A stretch of 64,000 bases of DNA from Trueperaceae bacterium (GTDB lineage: Bacteria > Deinococcota > Deinococci > Deinococcales > Trueperaceae), in assembly GCA_011389865.1 (NCBI GenBank), contig JAABTL010000008.1, positions 1 through 64,000 of the forward strand, given 5' to 3'. The notes below the pieces were generated by a model. It searched no databases and was not told where the DNA came from. It worked only from the letters and a program-made list of their open reading frames with translations. Below, in pieces: positions 19,006 through 23,941 of the stretch. Both the position numbers and the translations under genes were made by a program. The stretch's first letter is position 1. Every line of letters starts with the position of its first letter.

Positions 19006-19986
19006 TCACGCCACCATCCGTTTCGGCCGCCGCACGTAGAACGTGTGGTCTCCGTAGCGCGTCGCCACGAGTCGGCCGTCGTCGACGAGCCGGCGAACGA
19101 CGTCGCGGTCGGCGCCGGAGCGGCGGAGGAGCTCCACCACCGCGTCCTCGCGCATGGGGTGGACGGCGGTGATGCCGAGCAGGTCGGTCTCGGCGTCGCC
19201 GCTGGCGGAGAAGGCGTTCCCCTCGTAGCCGAGCAGGCACTCCACCGCGGGTAGGCGCGCGGCGAGGACTTGGTAGGCGCCGTTCACCTTGGCCTCGTCG
19301 GGCGGCCGCACGCCGTGCAGCGCCGGCGGCCGCGTGGGCACCGACAGGTAGGCGGTGCTCGGCGCGAGCTCCGCGAGGAAGCCTGCTACCGCGTCGAGGT
19401 GGGCCGGGGCGTCGTTGATGCCCGCGACGAGCATCGTCTCGCTCACGAGGGTGCCGCCGAAGCCGCGGGCGAACGCCCGCGCCCCGTCGAGGATCGCGTC
19501 GAGCGAGAGGCTCCCGTGCGGGCGGTCGAGCGCGTGCCAGACCCGCGGGTCGACGGCGTCGACCTTGAGCGACACCCAGTCGGCCTCCGCCAGGTCGGCC
19601 CGCACGCCCGCCTGCCAGATGAGCGACGCGTTGCTGATGACCGCGATCGGGATGCCGAGCGGGCGTAGGGACCGGATCTCGGCGCCGAGGTTCGCGTCGA
19701 GCGTCGGCTCGCCGGCTGGCACGAACGTGAGCGCGTCCACGGCCTCGCCGCGCCGCCGCAGGTCGGCGACCTTGGCGCGCACCGCCGCGGCGACCTCAGC
19801 GGGCGGCGCGAAGGCGCGCCGTTCCACCTGCATCCGCAGCGTCGGCCCCAACTGGCAGTAGGTGCAGGCGTAGCTGCAGGTCTTGGGCGGCACGTGATCG
19901 ATGCCGAGGCTCCGGCCCAGGCGCCGGGAGGGTACGGGCCCGAAGGCGATCTCGTGGCCCGGCGGGAACTGCGTGGGGTCGGCCAT
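19006..19986 (-). CDS. radical SAM protein
   Basis: The 326-residue protein has the radical SAM motif Cys37-x3-Cys41-x2-Cys44 (CSYACTYC) after an N-terminal FGPVPSRRLGRSLGID. The SAM-binding elements include FVPAGEPTLD (GEPTL) and AVISNASLIW. The extended C-terminal half (~245-326) looks like a small winged helix (EDAVVELLRRSGADRDVVRRLVDDG). The FGPVPSRRLG start is typical of a conserved but uncharacterised radical SAM family. The reaction is unknown. GGAGG lies 6 bases before the ATG. Confidence 0.88.
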   Translation of the reverse strand: MADPTQFPPGHEIAFGPVPSRRLGRSLGIDHVPPKTCSYACTYCQLGPTLRMQVERRAFAPPAEVAAAVRAKVADLRRRGEAVDALTFVPAGEPTLDANLGAEIRSLRPLGIPIAVISNASLIWQAGVRADLAEADWVSLKVDAVDPRVWHALDRPHGSLSLDAILDGARAFARGFGGTLVSETMLVAGINDAPAHLDAVAGFLAELAPSTAYLSVPTRPPALHGVRPPDEAKVNGAYQVLAARLPAVECLLGYEGNAFSASGDAETDLLGITAVHPMREDAVVELLRRSGADRDVVRRLVDDGRLVATRYGDHTFYVRRPKRMVA

Positions 19987-20023
19987 CTCGGGCCTCCTGG
20001 TTCGCGTCGCCGGCCGAGGGCGG

Positions 20024-20620
20024 CTACCCGTGCGGCCGGTGGGCGCCGTCCCCGTCGCCCGCCGCCTGGAAGACCACGAGCAGCCGGGCGCGGCGCGCCG
20101 AGGCGTTGCGGAAGGCGTGCGGCAGCGTGCTCTCGAGCAGCAGGCTGTCGCCCGCGGTGAGCACGTAGCCTTCGCCGTTGACGGTGTACTCGACCTGGCC
20201 CTCGAGGCAGTGGGCGAACTCCTGGCCCGGGTGCCGCACGGGTCGCTCGCCGCCAGCCCCCGGCGCCAGCGTGAAGAGGAACGGCTCCAACTGCTGGTCG
20301 CGCAGCCCGCTGCCGAGGCTCTCCATGCGCACGCCGTGCTCGTCGTGTCCCAGCCGACGATCGCGGGTGACGGCCACCACGCGGCGTGCCTCGGCCGCCT
20401 GGAAGAGGTCGACGATCGGGACCCCGAGCGCCGCGGCCAGCGCGTGCAGCGACGACACCGTGGGCGAGCTCTTGCCGCGCTCGATGAGGCTGATCGCGTT
20501 GATGGAGAGCGAGCAGCGCTCCGACAGGGCGCGCAGCGAGAGGCCGCGGGTTTCGCGCAGTTCGCGGAGGCGGGCGCCGACCGCTGGCGGTGCGGGGTCC
20601 CCGTGGGGTGGGCTGCTCAT
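20024..20620 (-). CDS. XRE-family regulator with C-terminal cupin domain
   Basis: The 198-residue protein has an HTH-XRE domain (~14-70: LRELRETRGLSLRALSERCS, INAISLIERGKSSPTVSSL) and a cupin_2 domain (~100-190: HPGQEFAHCLEGQVEYTVNGEGYVL, DSLLLESTLPHAFRN). The cupin probably binds a small ligand or metal through the HxxxE/H residues. It is divergent from the CooC-like ATPase gene, and the shared 134-bp region holds an inverted repeat (20651-20669), so it likely controls both. The ATG at 20620 is preceded by TACGCT 7 bases upstream and no Shine-Dalgarno, fitting a leaderless start. Confidence 0.85.
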   Translation of the reverse strand: MSSPPHGDPAPPAVGARLRELRETRGLSLRALSERCSLSINAISLIERGKSSPTVSSLHALAAALGVPIVDLFQAAEARRVVAVTRDRRLGHDEHGVRMESLGSGLRDQQLEPFLFTLAPGAGGERPVRHPGQEFAHCLEGQVEYTVNGEGYVLTAGDSLLLESTLPHAFRNASARRARLLVVFQAAGDGDGAHRPHG

Positions 20621-20627
20621 CGCCCCC

Positions 20628-20633
20628 AGCGTA
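20628..20633 (-). promoter_or_regulatory. -10 box (TACGCT) for the XRE-cupin gene, leaderless spacing
   Basis: TACGCT on the minus strand ends 7 bases before ATG 20620. Confidence 0.4.
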
Positions 20634-20650
20634 CCAGTAGACAGGACGGT

Positions 20651-20669
20651 TGTACATGTTTGCAGTACA
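20651..20669. promoter_or_regulatory. inverted repeat TGTAC-N9-GTACA, candidate operator
   Basis: TGTAC (20651-20655) and GTACA (20665-20669) form a 5-bp inverted repeat centred between the XRE-cupin regulator and the CooC-like ATPase. A third GTAC occurs at 20631-20634. Positioned just upstream of the regulator's -10 box, it is the natural site for autorepression (inference). Confidence 0.45.
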
Positions 20670-20754
20670 GTAGGGCGACGCGCGGCGGCCGGCGCGAAGC
20701 GATCGCTGGCGGCGTGCACGGCCCACGACCCGCGCCAGGGAAGGAAGTCGCATC

Positions 20755-21657
20755 ATGACCGGCGAATCGGGCGTCCTCCAGGGGAAGCGGATCGGCGTGT
20801 TCGGCAAGGGCGGGGCGGGCAAGAGCACGGTCGTCGTCCTGCTGGCGCGGGCCCTCCACCGCCACGGTTACGAGGTGTGCGTCGTGGACGCGGACTCCAC
20901 CAACGCCGGCCTGGCGGCCGCGCTCGGCCTGGAGCGCGTGCCGGACCCCCTGATGCGTCGCTTCGGCGGGACGGTGTTCACCGGCGGGGCCGTCAGCTGC
21001 CCCGTCGACGACCCCACCCGCCTGCCATCGCCGCGCATCGCGCTCGACGCCGTCGATCCCGACTACCTGAGCCACGACGGCGCGGGCCTGAGCCTGCTCT
21101 CGCTCGGCAAGATCACCGAGGACGGACCGGGCGCCGGCTGCGACGGACCGGTGGCGAAGATCGCCCGCGACCTCGAGGTCGAGAGGGACGGTCGCGACGT
21201 GTTGACGCTGCTCGACTTCAAGGCCGGCTTCGAGGACTGGGCCCGCGGCGTCATCACCACGCTCGACTGGGCGGTCGTCGTCGTGGACCCCACCACCGCG
21301 GCCGTCGACATGGCGGGGCACATGGACGACGTGGTGCGCAGGATCCGCGCCGGCGCGGGGCCTGCGACCCGTCACCTCGACGACCCGCGCCTGGTCGAGA
21401 TCGCCGAGGGCCTCTACCGCGACGCGCGCGTCCGCGGCACCCTCTGCGTGCTCAACAAGGTCCCCGACGCGGAGAGCGAGGAGTACCTGCGCGCGGCGCT
21501 GGCGCGCCACGCCATCACCCCGGTCGCGGCGATCCACGAGGACCGGGCGCTCGCAGGCGCCTGGATGCGCGGCGATCGTCTGGAAGCCGACGGCCGCGCC
21601 AAGGACGCTGCGGCGATCGTCGACGCTCTCGAGGCCGCAGAGGCGGTCGCAGGGTAG
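20755..21657 (+). CDS. CooC/MinD/ArsA-like P-loop ATPase
   Basis: The 300-residue protein has a deviant Walker A, GKGGAGKST (~17-25), the VVDADSTNAG switch region and a Walker B-like LLDFKAGFEDWARG, ending in an alpha-helical tail. This is the SIMIBI class that includes CooC (nickel insertion into CO dehydrogenase), NifH-like and ArsA ATPases. The conserved Cys in VSCPVDDP and GAGCDGPV could form a dimer metal site like that of CooC (inference). Ribosome site GGAAGG is present. Downstream lie a two-helix membrane protein and a His-rich NifX-like protein in the same direction, suggesting a metal-cofactor role. No CO dehydrogenase or nitrogenase gene is in the window. Confidence 0.75.
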   Translation: MTGESGVLQGKRIGVFGKGGAGKSTVVVLLARALHRHGYEVCVVDADSTNAGLAAALGLERVPDPLMRRFGGTVFTGGAVSCPVDDPTRLPSPRIALDAVDPDYLSHDGAGLSLLSLGKITEDGPGAGCDGPVAKIARDLEVERDGRDVLTLLDFKAGFEDWARGVITTLDWAVVVVDPTTAAVDMAGHMDDVVRRIRAGAGPATRHLDDPRLVEIAEGLYRDARVRGTLCVLNKVPDAESEEYLRAALARHAITPVAAIHEDRALAGAWMRGDRLEADGRAKDAAAIVDALEAAEAVAG

Positions 21658-21790
21658 GCGACGCGCGGGCGTCGGCGATCACCTGGCGAAGGGGCCGGAG
21701 CGCGGTCATCGGGCCATGCGGCCCTCCGGTGCTGGCCTAGCATGAAGGGTCGGGCCCGACCCTGGGAGGCCGCCCGAGAAGGGAACCACC

Positions 21791-22087
21791 ATGGCCATCG
21801 GAGCGCCATTCCGTCGTCTACTTGCTGCCGCCTGTGCCGTGCTCGGCGTCGTCCTGGTGGTGGTCGCCTTCATGTCCGCCGGTGCCGCACCGGAGCGCGC
21901 TCATCGGGATTTCAGCGATCTGGTCGCAGCGCAGGGTGGTTCGATGACGCACTCCCCCACCTACCCGGACACGTTCCGGCAGTTCTCGGCCCAGGCACGC
22001 ATGGTACAGAGCCTGCTCCTGGGCGGCACGGGCATCGTGCTGGTCGCGATCGGCACCGCGGCGGTGCTGCGGGACGACCCCGCCTAG
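21791..22087 (+). CDS. small two-helix membrane protein, unknown function
   Basis: The 98-residue product has two hydrophobic helices (LLAAACAVLGVVLVVVAFMSAG and LLLGGTGIVLVAIGTAAVL). They are joined by a ~45-residue polar loop (HRDFSDLVAAQGGSMTHSPTYPDTFRQFSAQAR), probably outside the cytoplasm. A GAAGGGAA ribosome site precedes the ATG. It lies between the CooC-like ATPase and the NifX-like gene, all in one direction with gaps of 133 and 52 bases, so co-transcription is plausible. No family recognised. Confidence 0.7.
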   Translation: MAIGAPFRRLLAAACAVLGVVLVVVAFMSAGAAPERAHRDFSDLVAAQGGSMTHSPTYPDTFRQFSAQARMVQSLLLGGTGIVLVAIGTAAVLRDDPA

Positions 22088-22139
22088 GCGCGCCGCCGGC
22101 AGCGCATCGCGGCAGGCGGGGATCGAAGGGAGCCGTTGC

Positions 22140-22625
22140 ATGGAACCGAGTGAGTCCGCGAAGATTGCGGCCGTGACCGACGACGGGCGGACGATCAGCG
22201 CCCACTTCGGTCGGGCCCGCGCCTACCTGGTGTGCACCATCGAGGGCGGCCGCGTGGTGGCGGAGGAACTGCGCGACAAGGCCGGTCACCACACCTTCGC
22301 CGCGAGCGACGAACACGGACCCGATCACGATCACGATCATGGGCACGACCATGGTCACGATCACGAACACCAGCACGATCGCCACCACGATCACCACGCC
22401 GGCGGCCACGGCACCGGGCCCGGCGCGGCGGACCGGCACGCGGCGATGACGGAGCCCATCCGCGACTGCGCCGTGGTGCTGGCGCGCGGCATGGGCCGCG
22501 GTGCCTACCTGGCGCTCGAGCAGGCCGGTCTCGAGCCGTTCATCACGACCGAGACGAGCATCGCCGAGGCCGTGCGCGCGTACCTGGGCGGCGAGCTCGT
22601 GAACCACACGGAACGGCTGCACTGA
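22140..22625 (+). CDS. NifX/NifB-type dinitrogenase cofactor-binding fold with long His-rich insert
   Basis: The 161-residue protein has the Nitro_FeMo-Co fold: KIAAVTDDGRTISAHFGRARAYLVCTIEGGRV at the N-terminus and DCAVVLARGMGRGAYLALEQAGLEPFITTETSIAEAVRAYLGGEL at the C-terminus. Between them (~55-85) is an insert with more than 15 histidines in repeated HDH/HGHD units. Such inserts bind Ni, Zn or Co in metallochaperones such as HypB and SlyD. The fold carries iron-sulfur or FeMo-type clusters in NifX/NafY; here a metal store or delivery role is inferred. Ribosome site GGGAG. Confidence 0.85.
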   Translation: MEPSESAKIAAVTDDGRTISAHFGRARAYLVCTIEGGRVVAEELRDKAGHHTFAASDEHGPDHDHDHGHDHGHDHEHQHDRHHDHHAGGHGTGPGAADRHAAMTEPIRDCAVVLARGMGRGAYLALEQAGLEPFITTETSIAEAVRAYLGGELVNHTERLH

Positions 22626-22795
22626 CGGTCCTTCGCGGTCGCATCGTCGAGGCGCCGTCGGTTGCCGCGGTCGTGCCAGGGGTGGCCGGTCGGCAGCGCC
22701 GACGGGGACGCGGTCCTGCACGCGCGGATGCCAGCGCGCCCGAGACACGGTAGGCCTCGGGCGCGGGTACGGCTAGGTGGAGCCGGGAGACGTCG

Positions 22796-23941
22796 TCAGC
22801 GGAACAGCGAGAGGACCCGCATCGCCGCGGTGGCGGTGGTCTCGAGCTGGTTCTCGATGAACGCCTCCAGCGTCGTGGAATCGCCGTTGGCGAACACCAG
22901 GAGGAGGTTGTCGCCGGGGATCCCGTCGTCGTCTTGGTCGTCCAGCGTGCCGCTGAAGGCGACCGCGGCCGCGCCGTCGACGGTGAGGTCGCCGTCGAGG
23001 CCGACCGACACGAACTCGCCGGTGACGTCGTCCACGACGATGTTGTCGAAGGTGAAGTCGACGCCGAAGCTGGACATGACGCCCGCCCGCTCGCTGAACA
23101 GCAGCACGTCGACGGCGCCGCTCTCGGGCTCGAAGTCGTCGATGAAGCAGTCGGCGCCCCGCGTCAGGGGGCCGGTCAGCGTGACGTCCCAACTCAGGCC
23201 CGCGCGGTCGCCGTCGGCGGACGCGACGACCTCGCCGCTGGCACCGATCTGGGCGTCGGCTGCCGAAACGGTCGTCAGCTCGAGGGTGATCTCGTTGAGC
23301 GCCAGCGTGGCGTCGACGCCGAACGAGCCGTCGACGGCAACGCGGGTGGGCTCGAGGATGCCGTCCGTGCAGGTGGCGGCCGAGTACCACGCGAACTCGG
23401 CGTCGGCGTCGGCCACGGTGGTCGTGTCCACCGTCATCGTCACGTTCATGGCCGTGGGCACTTCGACGAGGTCACCGAACTCGTCGCGGACCTGGGTCGT
23501 CACGCCCCAGTCGATCGTGATGGACGCGGTGTGCGTGTCGCTCGCTGCGTCCACGAAGGACCACCGCAGCACGAGATCGGTCGAGTCCCCGACCTCCACC
23601 CAGTCGAACAGGTCGTCGTCCCACACGAGGATGCCGCGCGGAAGCGACCCCGCCTGCGAGGGGTGGACGAGCGGGAGCGACAGCGCGCCGTCGCTGGGCG
23701 CGATCGGCTCCGCGACGGTGGGGAAGAAGCCGGGGAAGGCGCCGAGGGCGGCCACGCCCAGTTCGCCCTCGAAGCCGGCGCCCAGGTCCTCGAGGTCGGT
23801 GGTGACGTCCGCCACGGCCTGCTCGAGGTCGTCCTCGCCGTAGGTCGAGCCGCCGTCGCCGCCGTTCCCGGCGGGGTCGCACGCGCTCAACAACAGCAGT
23901 AGGGCTGCGAGGATGGATACGAGAACGGTCGGTCGTGGCAT
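22796..23941 (-). CDS. lipoprotein of unknown function
   Basis: The 381-residue product has a lipoprotein signal (LAALLLLLSAC, Cys21). A glycine-rich spacer is followed by a long acidic, beta-rich region with repeated motifs such as GDLTVDGAAAVAFSGTLDD and GSFGVDATLALNEITLELTTV. The composition (about one in five residues D or E) suggests a secreted, possibly calcium-binding domain. Cysteine pairs at ATCTDG and DCFIDD could form disulfides. No family recognised. GGAGGTGCGCC lies right before the ATG. The following 220 bases (23942-24161) hold nothing else I can identify. Confidence 0.75.
   Translation of the reverse strand: MPRPTVLVSILAALLLLLSACDPAGNGGDGGSTYGEDDLEQAVADVTTDLEDLGAGFEGELGVAALGAFPGFFPTVAEPIAPSDGALSLPLVHPSQAGSLPRGILVWDDDLFDWVEVGDSTDLVLRWSFVDAASDTHTASITIDWGVTTQVRDEFGDLVEVPTAMNVTMTVDTTTVADADAEFAWYSAATCTDGILEPTRVAVDGSFGVDATLALNEITLELTTVSAADAQIGASGEVVASADGDRAGLSWDVTLTGPLTRGADCFIDDFEPESGAVDVLLFSERAGVMSSFGVDFTFDNIVVDDVTGEFVSVGLDGDLTVDGAAAVAFSGTLDDQDDDGIPGDNLLLVFANGDSTTLEAFIENQLETTATAAMRVLSLFR

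Follow-up and report, generated by a model that had tools for sequence, protein, structure and literature searches.

A CooC-like ATPase gene beside a histidine-rich NifX-fold gene in Trueperaceae: a possible metal buffer and hand-over pair

The locus described here, in a 64,000-nucleotide stretch of a Trueperaceae bacterium genome (GCA_011389865.1, contig JAABTL010000008.1, positions 1 to 64,000; hereafter the window), encodes a SIMIBI ATPase and a histidine-rich protein of the NifX fold, and its closest described counterparts are of three kinds. CooC is the maturation ATPase of nickel-containing carbon monoxide dehydrogenase (Ni-CODH; PDB 3KJE, 3KJG, 3KJH and 3KJI). In the account of PMC6006190, CooC-1 has the deviant Walker A motif GKGGVGKTT, CooC carries two strictly conserved cysteines (C-X-C) at the metal site of its dimer, and in Rhodospirillum rubrum it is encoded together with the His-rich protein CooJ. 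The domain shared by NifX, NafY and the C-terminal part of NifB (PF02579) carries a His-Phe-Gly (HFG) motif, and its histidine is described as the key cofactor ligand in NafY (PMC8496260). A SIMIBI ATPase is coupled to a NifX-fold domain in the DUF134-NifX-ATPase group and in MrpORP, where the two are fused.

The window comes from contig 66 of a genome of 3.05 Mb, which is 97% complete. The locus comprises the following features.

20755 to 21657, plus strand: CooC-like SIMIBI ATPase, 300 residues, with a deviant Walker A motif and a single Cys129 where CooC has C-X-C
21791 to 22087, plus strand: two-helix membrane protein, 98 residues, of a Trueperaceae family found in scattered contexts
22140 to 22625, plus strand: His-rich NifX-fold protein, 161 residues, with HFG at residues 22 to 24, a His-rich insert and a C-terminal histidine
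20024 to 20620, minus strand: XRE-cupin transcriptional regulator, 198 residues, likely ATG start at 20620
20651 to 20669, strandless: palindrome TGTAC-N9-GTACA, a possible operator of the regulator
19006 to 19986, minus strand: radical SAM protein, 326 residues, assigned to the superfamily by Radical_SAM (43.4 bits, cut-off 29.5) and a CX3CX2C motif in TCSYACTYCQLG

All four open reading frames that the initial annotation had claimed, from the regulator to the NifX-fold gene, were found at their expected positions. The radical SAM gene, which it did not name, lies 37 bp downstream of the regulator on the same strand. On the plus strand, 133 bp separate the ATPase and membrane protein genes and 52 bp the membrane protein and NifX-fold genes; no promoter- or terminator-like sites were found in 19950-22850. 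We tentatively interpret the ATPase and the NifX-fold protein as a metal buffer plus ATPase pair, perhaps for nickel, serving storage and hand-over and encoded beside an XRE-cupin regulator, and give this reading a probability of roughly 0.4. As in R. rubrum, genes for a SIMIBI ATPase and a His-rich protein stand close together; the His-rich part is, however, the insert of a NifX fold and not CooJ, and no CODH operon is present. The coupling of a SIMIBI ATPase to a NifX-fold domain is likewise shared with the MrpORP and DUF134-NifX-ATPase group, but the window genes are unfused, the ATPase is of the CooC type instead of the Mrp type, and DUF134 had no match among the genes of the locus. Among the papers listed by our literature search, no title or abstract opening names this gene combination. 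Since the pairing of an ATPase with NifX is known, even as the MrpORP fusion, the idea that a metal-cofactor module of this kind is undescribed is weakened, and the proposal as a whole is partly supported; the gene set is at most a variant of the ATPase-plus-NifX kind.

The NifX-fold protein belongs to the PF02579 superfamily (Nitro_FeMo-Co, 58.0 bits, cut-off 26.3), and residues 49 to 100 contain 18 histidines in 52 residues (21 in the whole protein), confirming both the fold and the His-rich insert. It falls short of NifX proper, scoring 22.9 bits against an equivalog cut-off of 112. While it shares the fold family and the His-Phe-Gly motif with the NifX/NafY/NifB C-terminal domain, it differs by its long His-rich insert and its C-terminal histidine, and no nitrogenase match (Oxidored_nitro) was found in the genome. 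The phylum set comprised 111 genomes, of which 101 entered the first ATPase and NifX searches. At E ≤ 0.001 the protein matched 12 of the 101, and eight matches were counted as true: the window's genome (G000), its congener and sister genome G001, and G003, G010, G022, G030, G069 and G073. Those in G023, G004, G008 and G033 were dropped as partial matches, mainly to the His-rich stretch; the G004 match, inspected at gene level, is another His-rich protein. HFG (H22-F23-G24 in the window protein) is kept in 8/8 aligned subfamily members, which also share a final histidine and a His-rich insert whose length varies (the end of the G069 copy lay outside the alignment). The insert is reminiscent of nickel-binding proteins rich in histidine, CooJ among them, as described in PMC6006190.

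Pfam assigns the ATPase to CbiA (44.9 bits, cut-off 25.4), and its NCBIfam matches lie far below the cut-offs and are mostly P-loop only. Its deviant Walker A motif, GKGGAGKST at residues 17 to 25, is that expected of a CooC. The proposed likeness to CooC holds along the length of the protein, with only one of the two metal cysteines. BLASTP gave 62.8 bits over 251 columns against a protein of Acetoanaerobium, which, like a relative in genome G105, is called CooC-type here from alignment and from the GCLC/GCVC motifs, no annotation saying so. Two Mrp-type proteins gave 37-42 bits over the P-loop only. An hhalign comparison with the CooC type reached a probability of 98.7 over 209 columns, and a mixed profile of five proteins, which leans on its two CooC-type rows, matched the CooC structure 3KJE at 4e-44. 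The likeness to CooC thus comprises the Walker A motif, full-length similarity and one conserved metal-site cysteine. The differences are that the second cysteine is a glycine (C129-D-G131), that an insert follows about residue 190, and that no Prismane-family Ni-CODH match was found in the genome. The ATPase subfamily is marked by DFKAGFEDWARG and by one cysteine at the metal site; the other cysteines of the protein are C42, C82 and C231. By the two-cysteine test, the window ATPase is not a CooC, although it may work like one. Structure prediction of the ATPase and the NifX-fold protein from two-row alignments yielded unusable models (mean predicted local distance difference test scores of 33.1 and 46.6, respectively).

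The ATPase is rare. At E ≤ 1e-8 it was found in three of the 111 phylum genomes, namely the window's own, G001 and G105 (30% identical). The close subfamily is confined to the first two, and in both the membrane protein and NifX-fold genes lie beside it. In the first search 56 of 101 genomes matched at E ≤ 0.001; the 54 besides G000 and G001 were dropped, none exceeding 24.7 bits and nearly all being P-loop only. The G105 relative has a complete C-X-C, and its gene immediately precedes that of a [NiFe]-hydrogenase small subunit, with hypC nearby. The stretch L055 1495-3471 (G105:C478) is a CooC-type ATPase locus in a relative of the same order. A scan of public genome contigs gave 159 pattern matches, of which one was real, the sister contig of Trueperaceae bacterium S08.Bin137 (JAABRV010000200.1); the patterns (KAGFEDW and DMA[GA]HMD) are narrow and could have overlooked more distant relatives outside the phylum. 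No relatives of the ATPase or the NifX-fold protein were present in viral contigs, and plasmid records gave three weak ATPase matches. When compared with the sister genome, the ratios of nonsynonymous to synonymous substitution rates (dN/dS) were 0.16 for the ATPase, 0.22 for the NifX-fold gene and 0.31 for the membrane protein gene, as compared with 0.13-0.19 for four other whole genes and 0.165 for one partial gene of the same region. All three genes are under purifying selection.

We examined the genome for enzymes that such a pair might serve. The initial annotation had reported no CODH, hydrogenase or nitrogenase, which holds for the window and not for the genome, where three [NiFe]-hydrogenase large subunits are encoded, with one complete match on contig C7 and two on C33; HypA and HypB are encoded on C7. 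Two stretches (L101 11550-17004 and L103 6218-16394) encode a [NiFe]-hydrogenase of the membrane type and two of the cytoplasmic type, together with maturation genes; these types were read from gene order. Nickel hand-over to the hydrogenases is possible, and these would be the most plausible clients in this genome. Under the metal buffer and ATPase reading, this would be a small metal-trafficking locus whose two arms diverge next to a single XRE-cupin regulator. Its His-rich insert would let the NifX-fold protein bind and buffer a transition metal, nickel being the likeliest and zinc or cobalt possible, and the conserved His-Phe-Gly site may be where this protein holds a metal or metal-sulfur unit. 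On binding nucleotide, the CooC-like ATPase would dimerise and carry the metal to a client whose gene lies outside the locus; as each monomer would contribute one cysteine, the interface site would comprise two cysteines, not four. The divergent radical SAM gene may act in this pathway too, and the membrane protein probably just happens to be encoded nearby.

Several observations weigh against a joint role, and nearly as likely as the metal buffer and ATPase pair is that these are neighbours without a joint function: the NifX-fold protein would be a free-standing, His-rich metal buffer, the membrane protein a small protein of its own, and the ATPase and radical SAM genes, which may have come by horizontal transfer, would adjoin by chance in one genus. 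The lack of the second metal-site cysteine (GCLC and GCVC in the comparison proteins) counts against a CooC-like role, and the ATPase as a single sequence, or as a profile with its 91% homologue only, listed no CooC structure in PDB at E ≤ 0.01. No client gene adjoins the locus, and since HypA and HypB already serve the nickel step, a role of the ATPase and NifX-fold protein would be supplementary or for another metal. Both cassette genomes are congeners, so that the linkage may be plain inheritance; two sister genomes amount to one evolutionary observation, which makes the co-occurrence statistically weak. Six of the eight NifX genomes lack the ATPase, an absence that is weaker where completeness is low (G073, 78%; G069, 85%; G030, 89%). 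In those six, with neighbours named from our reading of the translations, the NifX-fold gene adjoins an alpha/beta hydrolase gene (G003), an uncharacterised gene and an AarF-like gene (G022), an RNA methyltransferase-like gene (G069), or an ATP phosphoribosyltransferase-like gene and Trk-type potassium uptake genes (G073), and in G010 and G030 it lies near ribosomal protein S20 and RNA methyltransferase genes. The annotation of two Chloroflexota records places no such ATPase right next to their NifX relatives (34-37% identity by tblastn, 41% by BLASTP). The free-standing His-rich proteins of Trueperaceae and Chloroflexota share HFG, the His-rich insert and the final histidine with the window copy, which differs by its adjoining ATPase. 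On a Chlorohelix replicon (L078 7998-16372), the genes around a His-rich NifX relative are for TusA, rhodanese, DsrE-type and thioredoxin reductase proteins; a nif-linked NifX of another type is encoded separately on the same replicon.

The membrane protein is scattered as well. It has hydrophobic stretches near residues 9-28 and 69-90 and no profile match reaching the cut-off in a family search, and its family gave 11 matches in 9 of the 111 genomes. Two of these belong to the cassettes; the other nine lie outside them, one being a further copy in the genome of the window (L074 6376-6648; G000:C37:18917-19150). Around these nine are hydrolases, transporters, large regulators and other genes; the NifX-fold protein, ATPase, radical SAM protein and regulator are absent from these stretches of 4.4-9.4 kb (tblastn, E ≤ 1e-3), and inspection by eye revealed no motif common to the 11 upstream regions. 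That the membrane protein gene stands between the other two therefore lends a joint role weak support, and the 133-bp gap before it likewise suits independent neighbours. Against mere neighbourhood stand the constraint on all three genes and their collinearity in both genomes, which is kept despite a different gene between the NifX-fold gene and a major facilitator superfamily gene in each. The proposal of one cassette is partly supported: the three plus-strand genes are together in two of two genomes with the close ATPase, both of one genus, and the neighbour scatter that would speak against it was largely found for the NifX-fold and membrane protein genes.

The radical SAM gene bears on two further readings. 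At E ≤ 1e-20 it was detected in 2 of the 111 phylum genomes, the same two that carry the close ATPase. In G001 it stands at the end of contig C214, adjoining the same PfkB-like gene that is found near the window copy, and the ATPase contig (C113) begins inside the regulator; judging from this split regulator and PfkB-like context, the two contigs most likely adjoin. In a NifX/Mrp (ORP-type) cluster-assembly variant, which we consider unlikely, the radical SAM protein would build or modify a metal-sulfur cluster, the NifX-fold protein would carry it, and the ATPase would load or release it. This would fit the shared distribution of the radical SAM and ATPase genes, the weak match of the NifX-fold protein to the MrpORP model (26.1 bits, cut-off 450), and a Peptoclostridium radical SAM homologue (35%) that lies among DUF5320, DUF134 and Mrp/NBP35 genes, on the same replicon as a group of DUF134, NifX, two ATP-binding proteins and MrpORP. 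DUF134 and DUF5320 are usual companions of NifX. However, the nearest NifX is about 55 kb away from the Peptoclostridium homologue, and three radical SAM homologues in a plasmid collection have no NifX relative in their 6-8 kb flanks (tblastn, two NifX queries, E ≤ 1e-3). The lack of a DUF134 match at the window locus also argues against this variant, and the G001 radical SAM copy, short of about 90 codons near the C-terminus, tells against it and against a shared pathway with the metal buffer and ATPase pair alike. A bolder form of hand-over, in which the single-cysteine CooC relative would take metal from the His-rich NifX reservoir and a co-regulated radical SAM protein would build the accepting cofactor, for the hydrogenases or an unknown metalloenzyme, seems to us quite improbable. 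We regard it as very unlikely that the ATPase serves positioning or regulation in the manner of MinD/ParA-type proteins, with no connection to metal: the best scores of the ATPase alone are indeed to the P-loops of MinD, Mrp and ParA, but most of these matches are confined to the P-loop, and its full-length similarity is to CooC-type proteins. A viperin or anti-phage reading of the radical SAM protein was rejected, as its matches are at superfamily level (NCBIfam viperin, 32.9 bits against 180).

The regulator has a cupin domain (Cupin_2, 71.4 bits, cut-off 27.2) and a helix-turn-helix domain (HTH_31, 53.3 bits); with 106.8 bits against a PuuR equivalog cut-off of 211, it is not assigned to PuuR. 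Its first 32 residues, at the G001 contig edge, are 72% identical, and 507 plasmid records matched it at E ≤ 1e-10, each below 60% identity. The predicted TGTAC-N9-GTACA site is present between the divergent regulator and ATPase genes (TGTACATGTTTGCAGTACA), 30 bp before the regulator ATG and 85 bp before the ATPase ATG; an alternative longer regulator start, GTG at 20719, would span it. The exact palindrome has a single match in the 3.05 Mb genome, but this rarity proves nothing, because a reversed control pattern is about equally rare (one forward and one reverse match). In G001 a 20-bp core, GTACATGTTTGCAGTACAGT, is identical while the flanking bases differ, and a C in place of the outer T breaks the exact palindrome. 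Since the core is unchanged, the palindrome is a fair candidate operator, through which the two arms may be jointly regulated.

If the ATPase and the NifX-fold protein do work together, NifX-fold proteins outside nitrogen fixation would gain a testable role as a metal reservoir for a P-loop ATPase, and the metal site of CooC could do with a single cysteine in each monomer, in its old function or a new one. If they have no joint role, the locus would serve as a useful caution that what looks like a tidy cassette of three genes may be mostly the neighbourhood of one genus.

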